Below, in pieces: positions 34,062-40,534 of a stretch of DNA of 64,000 nt. The stretch is from assembly GCF_011759505.1 (NCBI RefSeq), contig NZ_JAAOYO010000004.1:434001-498000 (forward strand), in the 5' to 3' direction. Source of the DNA: Curtobacterium salicis. GTDB lineage: Bacteria; Actinomycetota; Actinomycetes; Actinomycetales; Microbacteriaceae. The notes below the pieces were generated by a model that was given only the letters and a program-made list of their open reading frames with translations, was not told where the DNA came from and did not search any database. The position numbers and the translations under genes are program-made. The first letter of the stretch is position 1. Each line of letters starts with the position of its first letter.

Positions 34062-35558
34062 GTGTCGACCCTCAGTGACCTCGTCCTCGCGCAAGGCCGT
34101 TCCTCCGAAGCCGACGTCGAGTGGCTGCACCTGCTCGTCGGGGACTGGCAGCTGCTCGCCGACCTGTCCTTCGCAGACATGGTGCTGTGGGTGCCGACCA
34201 AGGACGACTCGACCTTCGTGGCGGTGGCGCACGCACGCCCGTCCTCGGCGGCGACGCTGTTCTACCGCGACATCGTCGGGCAGGAGATCCGCGAAGAGTG
34301 GCGTGACCAGGTGACGCAGAGCTTCACGGGGAGTCGTGTGGTCGACTCCGCCGAGCCCGACTGGTACGAGGACACCCCGACCCGTGTCCGTGCGATCCCG
34401 GTGCTCCGCCGCCTCACCGCGAAGAGCGCGCAGACCACCGACCGCCCGATCGCGGTGGTCACCCGGCACTCGAACCAGGACGAGTCACGCACGCCGAGCC
34501 GGCAGGAACTCAACTTCACGGCCAGCGCGAACGACCTGTTCGGCATGATCGCCACCGGGGACTTCCCGGACCTCGGCGCCCCGGCCGGGCCCCGACGTGG
34601 TGCGCCGCGTGCCAGCGACGGACTGCTCCGTCTCGACACCGACGGCGTCGTGACGTTCGCCAGCCCGAACGGCCTCAGCGCCTTCAACCGGATGGGCTTC
34701 GACGGCGAACTCGAGCGGAAGTCCCTCGCCGAGGTCACCACCGAGCTCCTCGGCGCGCAGCTGGACGTCGACGAGTCCCTGCCGCTCGTCGTCACCGGAC
34801 GGGCGCCGTGGCGGGCCGACATCGAGGCGAAGGGCGTCACGGTGACGCTCCGCTCGATCCCGCTCCGCGACCACGGTGAGCGCATCGGGGCCGTCGTGCT
34901 CTGCCGTGACGTGACCGAGATGCGTCACCAGGAGCGCGAACTCATCACCAAGGACGCGACGATCCGCGAGATCCACCACCGGGTGAAGAACAACCTGCAG
35001 ACGGTCGCGTCCCTCCTCCGGATCCAGGCGCGCCGCACCCACTCGGACGAGGCTCGGACGTCGCTGCAGAACGCGATGCGTCGAGTCGCGGCGATCGCCG
35101 TCGTCCACGACACCCTCTCGACCGGACTCAGCCAGACCGTCGACTTCGACGAGGTGTTCGACTCCGTCCTCAAGCTCGTCACCGAGGTCGCCGCCTCGCA
35201 CAACACGACGGTGCACCCGAAGAAGACGGGGGAGTTCGGCGTGCTCCCGTCAGAGGCGGCGACCCCGCTCGCCCTCGGGCTGACGGAACTCGTCACGAAC
35301 GCGGTCGAGCACGGGTTGGACGGCCGCGACGGCGAGGTCGAGATCGTCGCGAACCGGCACGAGGACCACATCGAGATCCAGGTGCGTGACAACGGCGTCG
35401 GTCTGCCGGAGGGCAAGGTCGGTTCCGGCCTCGGCACCCAGATCGTCCGGACGCTCATCCAGGGCGAGCTCGGCGGCACGATCGACTGGCACACCCTGAC
35501 CGGCAGTGGCACCGAGGTCACGATCTCGATCCCGTTCCGCTGGCTCACCGCGGGCTGA
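34062..35558 (+). CDS. pdtaS: PdtaS-type sensor histidine kinase
   Basis: This 498-residue soluble kinase has an N-terminal GAF-like domain (1-150), a PAS domain (about 185-290) and a HisKA_2 domain whose phospho-acceptor lies in EIHHRVKNNLQ (His305/306). An HWE/HATPase domain with NAVEHGLDGR (N box) and GSGLGTQIV completes it. There is no membrane helix. In mycobacteria PdtaS phosphorylates the RNA-binding antiterminator PdtaR and responds to nitric oxide or copper. The cognate PdtaR gene is not in this window. It lies close to whiB1, as in M. tuberculosis. Confidence 0.92.
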   Translation: MSTLSDLVLAQGRSSEADVEWLHLLVGDWQLLADLSFADMVLWVPTKDDSTFVAVAHARPSSAATLFYRDIVGQEIREEWRDQVTQSFTGSRVVDSAEPDWYEDTPTRVRAIPVLRRLTAKSAQTTDRPIAVVTRHSNQDESRTPSRQELNFTASANDLFGMIATGDFPDLGAPAGPRRGAPRASDGLLRLDTDGVVTFASPNGLSAFNRMGFDGELERKSLAEVTTELLGAQLDVDESLPLVVTGRAPWRADIEAKGVTVTLRSIPLRDHGERIGAVVLCRDVTEMRHQERELITKDATIREIHHRVKNNLQTVASLLRIQARRTHSDEARTSLQNAMRRVAAIAVVHDTLSTGLSQTVDFDEVFDSVLKLVTEVAASHNTTVHPKKTGEFGVLPSEAATPLALGLTELVTNAVEHGLDGRDGEVEIVANRHEDHIEIQVRDNGVGLPEGKVGSGLGTQIVRTLIQGELGGTIDWHTLTGSGTEVTISIPFRWLTAG

Positions 35559-37312: not shown

Positions 37313-37388
<76 letters not shown>

Positions 37389-37470: not shown

Positions 37471-38619
37471 TCAGCGGCCGAGCTGCTCGAGGTGTTCGCG
37501 GACGTCAGGCGCGTCGTGGATCCGGCCTGTGTAGTGCTGCTCGGTGACGCGGGTGTTCGAGTGCCCGAGCAGCGCGGCCGCGGTGTCGAGGTCGACCCCG
37601 TCGCGGATGAGCTTGCCGACGGTCTTCCGGAACGACTTCGGGGTGATCCAGTCGTCGTACCCGTGGTGGTCGCGGAAGTCGCGCCACTGCCGGCGCATGT
37701 TGTTCGGTGAGCGGAGCGTCCCGGTCGACGACGGGAACACCCACTCCGTGTAGGCGTCTGCGCGGCGCTGCATGAGCATGGCGACGGCGAACGGGGGCAG
37801 GGGGAGCCTGCGCCACGACGAGGCTGTCTTCGGGTGCTCCTGGCGTTGCAGGCCCTCGCCGCGGACCTGGACGACGGTGCCGGTGATCGTGACGGTCGGG
37901 ACGTCGGCGCCGAGGTCGACGTCCACCCACCGGATGGCGAGCAGCTCGCCGGTCCGGACGGCGGTCGCCATGAGCATGTCGACCAGGTCGCCGAGCTCCG
38001 CGGTGCGTACCCGGCCGCCCTTGTCGATGCCGGTGTCCCAGGCACGGAGCCGCTGCCGGAGCACGACGACGTCGGCTGATGCGATGGTCAGCACCTCGCC
38101 GCGGGTGACGGCGACGGCGCGTGCCTCGGTGACGGGGTTCGTGCCGGCGGCGCCGTGCCGGACGGCGAGGGAGAACATGCCCTTCAGGATCACCCGGGCG
38201 GTCTTCGCCGCCGAGGGGGACTTCGCGATGAGCGCGCCGAGGTGCCTGTCGACGACGGGCACGGTGACCTCGCGGATCCGGAGAGCGCCGAGCGCGGGCT
38301 CGATGTGGGTGCGGAGCGATCGCCGGTACGCCTCGAGGGTGCCGGATGCGACCTTCCGCTCGAGGAGCGTGTCGTACCAGCGGTCGGCGAGGACCCGCAC
38401 GTGGCTCTCGGCGGTGATCTCGCCGCCGTGGAGGCGTGTCCGGTCCCGGAGGTGCTCGACGAGCGTGTCCTCCGCCTGACGGCCCGTGGAGCCGGTGCGC
38501 TCGACGAGTCGGGTGACGCCGTCGAAGTCGCGGAAGCGGGCCTTCGCGACCCAGAGCTTCCCGCGGCGGCTGCGGGTGATCTGCCCCCAGGTGCCGAGGA
38601 CGAGTGGTGGGCGGGGCAT
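37471..38619 (-). CDS. int: Tyrosine-type site-specific integrase
   Basis: This 382-residue phage integrase has an N-terminal arm/AP2-like DNA-binding part (1-65), a SAM-like core-binding domain (70-165) and a catalytic domain. Visible catalytic residues are R222 (TAVRTGELL), K264, R331, H353 (LGHS) and nucleophile Y363 (EQHYTG). In the HxxR box, His is replaced by Lys (K328-S-F-R331). The gene ends 83 bp from the tRNA-Lys 3' end and reads toward it. Its ATG overlaps the ImmA stop by one base, so int is the last gene of the leftward lysogeny operon. Confidence 0.94.
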   Translation of the reverse strand: MPRPPLVLGTWGQITRSRRGKLWVAKARFRDFDGVTRLVERTGSTGRQAEDTLVEHLRDRTRLHGGEITAESHVRVLADRWYDTLLERKVASGTLEAYRRSLRTHIEPALGALRIREVTVPVVDRHLGALIAKSPSAAKTARVILKGMFSLAVRHGAAGTNPVTEARAVAVTRGEVLTIASADVVVLRQRLRAWDTGIDKGGRVRTAELGDLVDMLMATAVRTGELLAIRWVDVDLGADVPTVTITGTVVQVRGEGLQRQEHPKTASSWRRLPLPPFAVAMLMQRRADAYTEWVFPSSTGTLRSPNNMRRQWRDFRDHHGYDDWITPKSFRKTVGKLIRDGVDLDTAAALLGHSNTRVTEQHYTGRIHDAPDVREHLEQLGR

Positions 38620-39032
38620 CAGGCGCTGACGAGCCGGTGGCCGGCGTAGATGCGGGGGCCGAACTTGCGGAGCACGTAGCGGCGGAAGTCGTGGACGACG
38701 GCGGGGGTCACGTTGAGCTCCTCGGCGATGTAGTGGGTGTCGGGGCTGACGCGCTCGAGGGCTGCGTAGTCCTCGGGGTGCACGAGCAGCGTCGCGGCGT
38801 AGGAGTCGGCCTGGCGCTCGATGGCGCTGTCCCGGCCGGTGTCGCAGGTGTGCCCGTGGAAGACGTGCCCGAGCTCGTGCGCGAGGACGGAGCGCCGCTC
38901 GGACGGTGTCAGTCGGATGTCCAGGTAGATGCGGCTCTCGAGCGGGGAGTAGGCGCCGAGGAGGTCATCGGGCAGGTGCCCCATGACGACGCGGACGCCG
39001 TAGTCCCGTGCGATGTCCATCAGCTCTCTCAC
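38619..39032 (-). CDS. ImmA/IrrE family metallo-endopeptidase
   Basis: This 137-residue zinc peptidase has H52-E-L-G-H56 (AHELGHVFHGH) and a downstream ERQADSYAATLL that supplies the third ligand. ImmA-type proteins cleave phage or ICE repressors to trigger induction. The gene lies directly downstream of the HTH repressor (17 bp), which supports that pairing; the cleavage itself is inference. It is coupled to int by TGATG. Confidence 0.9.
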   Translation of the reverse strand: MRELMDIARDYGVRVVMGHLPDDLLGAYSPLESRIYLDIRLTPSERRSVLAHELGHVFHGHTCDTGRDSAIERQADSYAATLLVHPEDYAALERVSPDTHYIAEELNVTPAVVHDFRRYVLRKFGPRIYAGHRLVSA

Positions 39033-39049
39033 GTTGCCCCCGTGGGTGG

Positions 39050-39511
39050 TCAGTCGGCAGCCGGTTCGTCTGCCTTGCGCTGGCCGCGGCGTGCGGCCTT
39101 GGGGAGGGCCTCGAGGTGCGACGTGTCAGGGATGACGTCGTAGTCCTCGGAGGTGTCCTCATCTTGCGGGGTGGGTACGACACTGAGGTTCGGCTTCAGG
39201 CCCCAGCGTGCGAGGTCTGCGGCGTCGGCGGCAGCGAGGGTGTCGAAGTAGGTGGCACCGTGCCGGCGGATAGCGATCTCGGCGTTGCGGAGGATCTCGG
39301 CGGGCTCGATGTCGAGTCCGTGGCAGAGGCGGCCGAGCTCTTCGACGTCGATGACGCGGGCGCCGCGGAGGCTCTTGGAGACGGTCGAGTAGGGGAGCCG
39401 GCTGCGTTCGCCGAGCTCGCGGACGCCGATGTTGCGGCGGCTCGATTCCGCACGCAGCTCAGCGCTCACTGCCTGGCTCAGCGGACCCAATTCACGACTG
39501 TTCGTTCCCAT
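39050..39511 (-). CDS. Phage HTH repressor (probable ImmA target)
   Basis: This 153-residue protein has an N-terminal Cro/C1-type helix-turn-helix (residues 10-70; VRELGERSRLPYSTVSKSLR) and a C-terminal extension without a LexA-like Ser/Lys protease dyad, which fits cleavage by a separate peptidase. The ATG at 39511 was chosen over an upstream start because a good promoter (TTGTGG, 17 bp, TAGTTT) ends 7 bases before it, giving a leaderless message. TGGAAA repeats around this promoter are candidate operators. Confidence 0.8.
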   Translation of the reverse strand: MGTNSRELGPLSQAVSAELRAESSRRNIGVRELGERSRLPYSTVSKSLRGARVIDVEELGRLCHGLDIEPAEILRNAEIAIRRHGATYFDTLAAADAADLARWGLKPNLSVVPTPQDEDTSEDYDVIPDTSHLEALPKAARRGQRKADEPAAD

Positions 39512-39512
39512 G

Positions 39513-39602
39513 TGGAAAAAACTAGCCAGAAATGGAAACAACCACAAGTCTCCCTTGCGGCGGACACACATGGGCGCATACTGGTCCACATGGAAACACA
39601 GA
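39513..39602. promoter_or_regulatory. Divergent lysogeny control region with three operator-like repeats
   Basis: Leftward promoter: TTGTGG (complement of 39542-39547), 17-bp spacer, TAGTTT (complement of 39519-39524), 7 bases to the repressor ATG. Rightward promoter: TTGCGG (39555-39560), 16 bp, CATACT (39577-39582), 7 bases to the Cro-like ATG. Direct repeats TGGAAAAAACTA (39513), TGGAAACAACCA (39533) and TGGAAACACAGA (39591) lie at the promoters and the two starts. Confidence 0.6.
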
Positions 39603-39850
39603 GCTACAGCGAGCAAGTGGCGGGAGAGGTCCGAGCGGCCATCGGACGCGCCGGCCTGACGCAGTCCGCCGTGTCGACGAAGACCGGCATCTCCGGCGCG
39701 ACGCTGTCCCGGAAGCTGTCCGGGAAGGTCGCGTTCGACGTCGAGGAGCTCAACGCGATCGCCGAGGCGCTCGGCCTCGTCACGTACGAGCTGATGCCCC
39801 GGACGAAGCCGGCGGCGCAGCGCGCTGAGGCGCTGGCGGTGGCCTCGTGA
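39590..39850 (+). CDS. Cro-like HTH regulator
   Basis: This 86-residue protein is almost entirely a helix-turn-helix domain (LTQSAVSTKTGISGATLSRK, then VEELNAIAEALGL). It is transcribed opposite the repressor from a shared 78-bp region and starts the rightward early operon, so a Cro role fits. The promoter -10 ends 7 bases before the ATG, so the transcript is probably leaderless. Confidence 0.8.
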   Translation: METQSYSEQVAGEVRAAIGRAGLTQSAVSTKTGISGATLSRKLSGKVAFDVEELNAIAEALGLVTYELMPRTKPAAQRAEALAVAS

Positions 39851-40056
39851 GCATCGACCTCGCTCAGACCCGACCCGACGACGAGCAGCTCGTCGACATC
39901 GCCAGGGCGGCCGAGTACCTCGGCCTGAAGGTGAAGACCCTCTACGAGTGGCGTCGCCTCCGGAAGGGGCCCGTCGCGACGAAGGTCGGGCGCCTCGTGA
40001 AGTACCGCCTCGGCGACCTGCGCGCGTACGTCGCCGCGCAGCGCGACGCCGCCTGA
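39847..40056 (+). CDS. Excisionase-like MerR/HTH_17 protein
   Basis: This 69-residue protein is an HTH_17 excisionase fold (LVDIARAAEYLGLKVKTLYE, ending KYRLGDLRAYV). GTG start overlaps the Cro-like stop by 4 bp. It may direct excision with the integrase or act as a transcription factor. Confidence 0.75.
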   Translation: MSIDLAQTRPDDEQLVDIARAAEYLGLKVKTLYEWRRLRKGPVATKVGRLVKYRLGDLRAYVAAQRDAA

Positions 40057-40138
40057 CCTCTCTCCCCCTCTGATCTTCTGCCGCCCGGCTACCGACAGCC
40101 CGGCGGGATCACTTCTCTCACCCCGAAGGGGCAACGAC

Positions 40139-40534
40139 ATGTTCCGTGGTACCTCCATGCCTGCAGCCGGGCGGAAGCTCGCTGCGCTGATCCGCTCGGA
40201 GGAGCTGATCTTCGACCACGACGGCCACATCTGGCGCGTCCACTCCACCGCTCAGGTGCACGACCAGGTCGTGCTCACGATTCGCAACGAGCTCGGCGAG
40301 CGGTCCGTCGTCGAGGTCCCGCTCGATGCGACGCTGCCGGTCCCGATCACTGGGACGACGGAGGGGCAGCGGACGTTCCTCCGTGGCGCTCCGTGGTTCC
40401 TGTTCGCGATCGTCGTCGCGCTGATCTCGTGGGTGGTGGAGGTCCCGATCGCTGGCGGCCTGCTGCTCCTGGTGGTCGTGTCGGTGCTGATCGGTGCGGT
40501 CGCGATGCTGACGCCGCCGCGAGGTGTCCGATGA
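40139..40534 (+). CDS. Phage membrane protein, unknown
   Basis: This 131-residue protein has a soluble first half (DGHIWRVHSTAQVHDQVVL) and two adjacent membrane helices at about 83-100 and 103-122. AAGGGG lies 6 bases before the ATG. It is the first gene after a short 82-bp gap that shows no other feature. It could be a superinfection-exclusion or accessory protein, but nothing shows this. Confidence 0.6.
   Translation: MFRGTSMPAAGRKLAALIRSEELIFDHDGHIWRVHSTAQVHDQVVLTIRNELGERSVVEVPLDATLPVPITGTTEGQRTFLRGAPWFLFAIVVALISWVVEVPIAGGLLLLVVVSVLIGAVAMLTPPRGVR

Follow-up and report, generated by a model that had tools for sequence, protein, structure and literature searches.

Within a 64-kb stretch of Curtobacterium salicis DNA (64,000 nt, hereafter the window), an HTH repressor gene on the minus strand (A of its ATG at 39511) and a Cro-like gene on the plus strand (A of its ATG at 39590) are separated by 78 bp, raising the question of how two promoters and their operators are accommodated in so short a region. 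Our best explanation, which we consider probable, is that two back-to-back leaderless promoters are controlled by CCA..TGG dyad operators lying on the start codons and in a spacer, and that ImmA releases the control. Gene order, the leaderless promoter signature, and the dyads with their conservation are supplied by the sequence and its comparison with relatives. The start positions agree with the compact divergent switch proposed in the first-pass annotation, and the ImmA gene that it placed next to the repressor is supported by the PF06114 match and the HELGH...ERQAD motif (Table 1).

The 35-bp core within the tRNA-Lys gene has a second copy on the same contig (C4:509081-509115, window-equivalent 75081-75115), and this repeat together with the adjoining integrase gene indicates a prophage of about 37.7 kb that extends past the window end. 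Near the integrase gene, the divergent HTH repressor and HTH Cro-like genes form a CI/Cro-type pair, the Pfam HTH matches of the repressor being below curated cut-offs; the two proteins are related to each other (27% identity over 63 aa, pair E 8e-7). The HEXXH-type M78 protease gene beside the repressor gives a gene arrangement of the ImmR/ImmA type. As part of the best explanation, and with the same confidence, the locus is likely to govern the choice between lysis and lysogeny in a temperate phage that has inserted at tRNA-Lys of its Curtobacterium host. The host assignment agrees with a putative sensor kinase encoded at 34062-35558, which shares 99% identity with a protein from Curtobacterium sp. 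MCPF17_052; in that search the 80 best of 258 loci include 43 from Curtobacterium, the top 41 among them. Among IMG/VR elements, the regulators are identical in two (L012 and L013) and related in a third (L014). The repressor had no match at E 1e-3 among 50,697 phage records and no confirmed match in genome contigs, and in NCBIfam none of the five proteins scored above its cut-off.

Table 1. Window coordinates and supporting evidence for the attachment site, genes, predicted promoter boxes and candidate operators
Feature	Position	Strand	Evidence
attL core (35 bp)	37352..37386	+	3' part of tRNA-Lys gene 37313-37388 (ARAGORN)
Tyrosine integrase	37471..38619	-	PF00589 3.2e-16; phrog_1 2.4e-46
ImmA-type metalloprotease (Peptidase M78)	38619..39032	-	PF06114 4.9e-11; phrog_87 metallo-protease 3.6e-24; HELGH...ERQAD
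HTH repressor, 153 aa, C-terminal tail ...RGQRKADEPAAD	39050..39511	-	phrog_4583 3.4e-7; HTH_31/HTH_26/HTH_3 below Pfam cut-off
Probable operator O-rep, GTTCCCATGTGGAAAA, dyad centre at 5' end of repressor start codon	39504..39519	.	GTTCGTTCCCATGTGGAA kept in L071; TGG to TTG in L014
Predicted repressor -10 box TAGTTT, 7 nt before ATG	39519..39524	-	direct reading; start ranked 1/3496
Probable operator O2, CCA-GAAA-TGG, in repressor -35/-10 spacer, holds start of second TGGAAA	39526..39535	.	CCA-N4-TGG in L014, L071
Predicted repressor -35 box TTGTGG	39542..39547	-	direct reading; profile -35 part ranks start 10/3496
Predicted Cro -35 box TTGCGG	39555..39560	+	direct reading; profile -35 part ranks start only 348/3496
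Degenerate site CACACATGGG, Cro spacer, weak candidate	39565..39574	.	direct reading; family-wide dyads recur at -19..-21
Predicted Cro -10 box CATACT, 7 nt before ATG	39577..39582	+	direct reading; whole profile 11/3496, -10 part alone 93/3496
Probable operator O-cro, TGGTCCACATGGAAAC, dyad centre at 5' end of Cro start codon, holds third TGGAAA	39582..39597	.	unchanged L012-L014; CCACATGG-AAC kept in L071
Cro-like HTH protein, 86 aa	39590..39850	+	PF13560 3.2e-8; phrog_4583 1.5e-21
HTH_17 protein, excisionase-like, overlaps Cro stop	39847..40056	+	PF12728 2e-9; phrog_66 excisionase and transcriptional regulator 3.5e-8

Both putative -10 boxes stop 7 bases short of their start codons, as the first-pass annotation had stated, with the spacings TTGTGG -17 nt- TAGTTT -7 nt- ATG for the repressor and TTGCGG -16 nt- CATACT -7 nt- ATG for Cro. 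That annotation also had the two promoters facing each other; they are in fact arranged back to back. To rank the two starts, we used a start-site profile built from 87 starts of the family, 44 of Cro and 43 of repressor genes, with the window and the L071 locus left out. When all 3,496 ATG/GTG codons in the window were scored, the repressor start came 1st and the Cro start 11th, bearing out the predicted leaderless signature. The -10 part alone placed them 2nd and 93rd, and the -35 part alone 10th and 348th; on these lower ranks the Cro promoter is the weaker case. A stricter sigma-70 consensus scan of 39000-40200 found no promoter; measured against that consensus both promoters have weak boxes, those of Cro above all. 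In column frequencies over 46 family Cro starts, TTG near -35, TA near -12/-11, T at -8/-7 and C at -1 stand out, with no purine-rich ribosome-site consensus; 45 family repressor starts show the same leaderless signature, which is seen again in 27 Cro starts from the wider order. Leaderless starts at both regulator genes are thus well supported as a prediction from the promoter signature.

The word TGGAAA occurs four times in the 64 kb. Three copies are in the switch, at 39513, 39533 and 39591, which agrees with the earlier placing of three repeats at the ends and in the leftward spacer, the third overlapping the first Cro-like codons; the left site reaches the repressor's own start codon as well, a point absent from that account. 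A longer pattern was also found, namely a 13-nt inverted repeat matching at 12 of 13 positions, GTTCCCATGTGGA (39504-39516) and TCCACATGGAAAC (39585-39597), with one arm across each start codon. Both arms belong to imperfect 16-bp dyads, each centred directly before the A of its start codon, the dyad at Cro being modest (3/7 outer pairs match). Only two places in the 64 kb, the two start sites, lie within 3 mismatches of GTTTCCAYRTGGAAAC, and two such places were obtained in 0/100 shuffles; since this consensus was derived from both sites themselves, the count is a description and not a proof, and with the same consensus and limit no additional operator copies were found in the window. It could be argued that all of this reflects chance or composition, TGGAAA and weak -10 words arising readily in an AT-richer stretch of GC-rich DNA, and the 51% GC of 39500-39610 and the lack of a match in the generic promoter scan fit such an account. 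We consider it highly improbable, however, as three TGGAAA words were reached in 0/5,000 dinucleotide shuffles of 39500-39610 (mean 0.07) and the 12/13 inverted repeat in 0/300, as the two starts ranked 1 and 11 of 3,496 with the window left out of the profile, and as the elements are conserved in L071.

Comparison with relatives points to the dyad as the operator unit. In L014, whose repressor and Cro are 84% and 78% identical to those of the window, the Cro site is unchanged, CCA-GAAA-TGG is CCA-TTTC-TGG and the first TGGAAA is TTGAAA, so that word is not essential in L014. The locus L071, from another genus, is more distant (repressor 45% over 83 aa, Cro 51% over 75 aa) and also has an adjoining ImmA-like gene. 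It keeps GTTCGTTCCCATGTGGAA at the repressor start together with the TA of the repressor -10 box, CCA-N4-TGG (N4 being ACTT) at the same distance as in the window, and TTGCG at the Cro -35 box with CCACATGG-AAC at the Cro start. The arms of CCA-N4-TGG are therefore kept with three different centres, GAAA (window), TTTC (L014) and ACTT (L071), which is the pattern expected of an operator. In both the window and L071, each of the two genes also has the right arm (GGGAAC/GGAAAC) within its coding sequence. Free TGGAAA was accordingly set aside as the operator unit: the change in L014 and the greater explanatory reach of the inverted repeat mean that the copies are better read as half-sites of dyads. 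The earlier proposal of TGGAAA operators thus holds for where the probable operators lie, as comparison indicates (both start codons and the repressor spacer), and gives way to the CCA..TGG dyad as the unit.

Two details of the L014 alignment are recorded separately. Over the first 18 cro codons (window 39590-39643, L014:2126-2179) the two DNA sequences differ by a single silent change, and divergence is greater in the remainder of the protein; the near-unchanged stretch is far longer than the operator and may be the trace of a recombination joint. In addition, the N4 of CCA-N4-TGG in the window (GAAA) is the reverse complement of that in L014 (TTTC), as if a small dyad had been flipped in place (39526-39535).

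We then asked where dyads lie around the Cro starts of the family. Loci came from searches of 66 genus and 398 family genomes, with up to 30 loci listed from each, plus 14 and 20 stretches hand-picked from the lists with a preference for divergent pairs and short frames. Together these sources gave 52 divergent pairs, 51 of them with ATG/GTG starts, and 46 were left after removal of those at least 65% alike (L012 and L014 dropped). For Cro we took whichever start codon lay closest to where the model begins, giving preference to ATG; the choice of repressor starts carries more uncertainty. Around each of the 46 Cro starts, centres between -70 and about +25 were scored for dyads of 7 outer pairs, against a null in which arms were re-paired between loci and column composition was kept. 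The best centre lay between -1 and the Cro start codon (z 4.1 of 190 centres; in a second run z 3.9 of 192, familywise P 0.013), followed by centres -19 to -21 upstream of the Cro start (z 3.2 to 2.9, familywise P 0.14 to 0.35). A start-centred dyad with at least 5/7 pairs was present at 15/46 Cro starts versus 3.2 expected, and a dyad at -19..-21 in 14/46 loci versus a mean of 2.5 and a maximum of 6 at other places; three of the 46 had both and 20 had neither. Some operators are common to several loci, and collapsing by the first 8 nt left 34, of which 7 carried the start dyad (1.7 expected; P 0.0008 as a single test, mean score P 0.03); among these 34 the start centre was outside the six best centres and not significant familywise. 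At the repressor starts of the family the scan gave no dyad peak at 0. Codon choice in cro codons 2-4 showed no operator footprint (GC3 0.64 with the dyad, 0.65 without). By eye, one related switch (L054:2180-2440) has three GAACCGA-type imperfect dyads between its repressor and Cro starts, in a layout unlike that of the window.

The scan was extended to an order-level set, for which 396 genomes gave 48 with a match at 1e-10 and 18 stretches were hand-picked. The resulting 47 loci yielded 31 pairs, of which 27 passed the filters used before; the set includes one locus, L231, that belongs to the window's own family. The start-codon dyad was found at 4/27 (z 1.4, mean P 0.10) and was not confirmed outside the family; spacer dyads were found at 6/27 versus 1.3 elsewhere (maximum 5).

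These counts bear on another reading, in which the genes are leaderless but the role of true operator falls to the spacer dyads (CCA-N4-TGG plus the degenerate site of the Cro spacer), following the pattern of mycobacteriophage BPs, the likeness of the two starts being due to the initiation context CCAC-ATG and the common ancestry of the proteins (MGT/MET). The three different centres between the kept CCA-N4-TGG arms, the excess of spacer dyads in both sets, the relatedness of the two proteins, the prevalence of C as the commonest base at -1, -3 and -4 of both Cro and repressor starts in the family, and the position of the BPs OR between -10 and -35 (in the accessible text of PMC4557955) are all in keeping with it. 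Still, centre 0 stands out in the family under a null that preserves column base composition, the right arms inside coding sequence are found again at each gene in the window and in L071, and the order-set mean dyad score is not raised at -19 (z -0.1) or -20 (z -1.5), with -21 at z 1.8 (P 0.05). We regard this reading as unlikely, and probable operators on the start codons as well as in the spacer remain our preferred explanation.

Based on this explanation, we infer DNA binding, dimer formation, occupancy, repression and the action of ImmA as follows. The repressor, and probably the related Cro protein too, would bind dyads of about 16 bp of the form CCA..TGG, one centred on each start codon (coinciding with +1), one in the repressor spacer and possibly a fourth, weaker, in the Cro spacer. 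A dimer bound at +1 would exclude RNA polymerase or stop promoter escape. The repressor would then shut off Cro at O-cro and limit itself at O-rep/O2, with Cro acting in the opposite sense; in the simplest scheme, the two related HTH proteins would exclude each other at operators on +1 and in the spacer. The first-pass annotation had further proposed that the DNA-bound repressor blocks the leaderless message as well. That part of the proposal is unsupported: nothing here shows RNA binding, a dyad centred on +1 would block RNA polymerase, and a block of transcription would suffice.

Several parts of this arrangement have counterparts in other phages. The Cro/CI logic is that of lambda, in which cro is leadered and cI undergoes RecA-dependent self-cleavage, and the host of PY54 is not an actinobacterium. 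A leaderless lambda cI message, a further likeness, is cited in PMC4488713, while lambda differs in its tripartite operators (PMC4557955), each as far as the available text goes. PY54 likewise has a divergent repressor/Cro pair and a 16-bp palindromic operator, and RACE found one leaderless message each for cI and cro, beginning at the AUG; PY54 Cro, in contrast, binds only OR3 upstream of cI and not a dyad on the cro start, and its switch as described in the accessible sections has no ImmA (PMC4488713). In BPs, with the gp33 repressor, Prep and PR are divergent, OR is in the -10/-35 spacer of PR and a related ORep sequence overlaps the Prep start, which are the two positions of the candidate operators in the window, but OR and ORep are 113 bp apart, each full operator has two 12-bp half-sites, the repressor is shortened in an integration-dependent manner, and no ImmA belongs to the switch as described in the text available (PMC4557955). 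Nor does the attachment site lie inside the repressor gene as in BPs, the core being at 37352-37386 in tRNA-Lys and the repressor at 39050-39511. Ten phage records from other hosts were compared at the Cro start, and two of them, the close kin Arthrobacter phages Peas and Bridgette, were the sole ones to reach 5/7 pairs, both with 6/7, the other eight having 0 to 4. Like the window, both pair a Cro promoter of the leaderless type with a dyad whose centre falls on the Cro ATG; they differ in operator sequence and in the 140 bp between starts.

Thus, two leaderless messages (PY54) and spacer and +1 operators (BPs) are known parts, going by the accessible portions of those reports, and what is added here is the prediction that, within 78 bp, dyad centre, +1 and start codon coincide at each of the two genes, with a first count of how often this is seen at Cro starts. 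A dyad centred on a leaderless cro start was not found among the titles listed or in the accessible text of PMC4488713, PMC11373665, PMC5401885, PMC8960796, PMC4633059, PMC9862828 and PMC4557955, a search that covered mainly open-access literature. We tentatively suggest, as a possibility that falls short of probable, that operator, +1 and start codon may coincide as a single element across a large class of actinobacterial phages, with the dyad centre on the first base of leaderless cro (here at both genes); the half-sites would then also encode the N-terminal residues of the proteins that they are bound by, and operator and protein N-terminus would evolve in step. To our knowledge, few actinobacterial phage switches have mapped promoters. 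If the proposed switch is right, a module of 78 bp specifies exactly where the 5' end and the operator centre should lie and what the first codons should be, the many relatives would allow operators to be predicted from sequence alone, and leaderless translation would free the gene start to act as an operator. The parts have precedents in other phages, and the single compact arrangement lends itself to comparison across many relatives.

For induction, ImmA would cleave or destabilise the repressor, perhaps via its C-terminal tail, and thereby release Cro. In ICEBs1 of Bacillus subtilis, an HTH repressor is likewise paired with a metallopeptidase, and ImmR is inactivated by ImmA cleavage at F95-M96, according to the accessible text of PMC8960796. 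ICEBs1 differs in having six ImmR sites (same source), and ImmR is not among the best 50 of 455 fold matches of our repressor model. The model (mean pLDDT 70.9) has helices at 10-84 (HTH bundle) and 87-102, the remainder, tail included, being of low confidence; its nearest solved folds are ClgR, an XRE regulator (5woq) and restriction-modification controller C-proteins, with DdrO lower (E 2e-4 to 1e-2). A survey of Curtobacterium prophages, in the part available, also noted M78 genes adjoining integrase genes and pointed to ICEBs1 (PMC9862828).

ImmA might instead be inactive on this repressor and a passenger, induction following another route such as an antirepressor or lost repressor synthesis, which is compatible with the DNA side of the best explanation. 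Cleavage is known only from other systems, and among 42 repressors followed by 450 nt or more of available sequence, 16 have an ImmA-like motif downstream and 26 do not, by a regular expression that may miss some. On the other hand, the repressor-then-ImmA order is the same in the window, L012-L014, L037 and L071, and an RG-(R/K)--D tail is present in 5/42 repressors, all five with ImmA, in a sample that is biased because several such loci first came via an ImmA search and helped build the Cro model. We consider a passenger role rather unlikely, and with ImmA-mediated release still preferred, this biased link hints that the repressor tail may be what ImmA meets.

The RG-(R/K)--D tail is shared by the repressors of the window, L037, L052, L053, L054 and L057, some of which end in PHAE or PHAD; it adjoins ImmA where examined and is a candidate ImmA recognition element. 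As a separate observation, in Mycobacterium phage prophiGD43A-3 (L122) and Propionibacterium phage B3 (L125), a Cro relative lies directly upstream of an annotated antirepressor gene, an induction partner different from ImmA.
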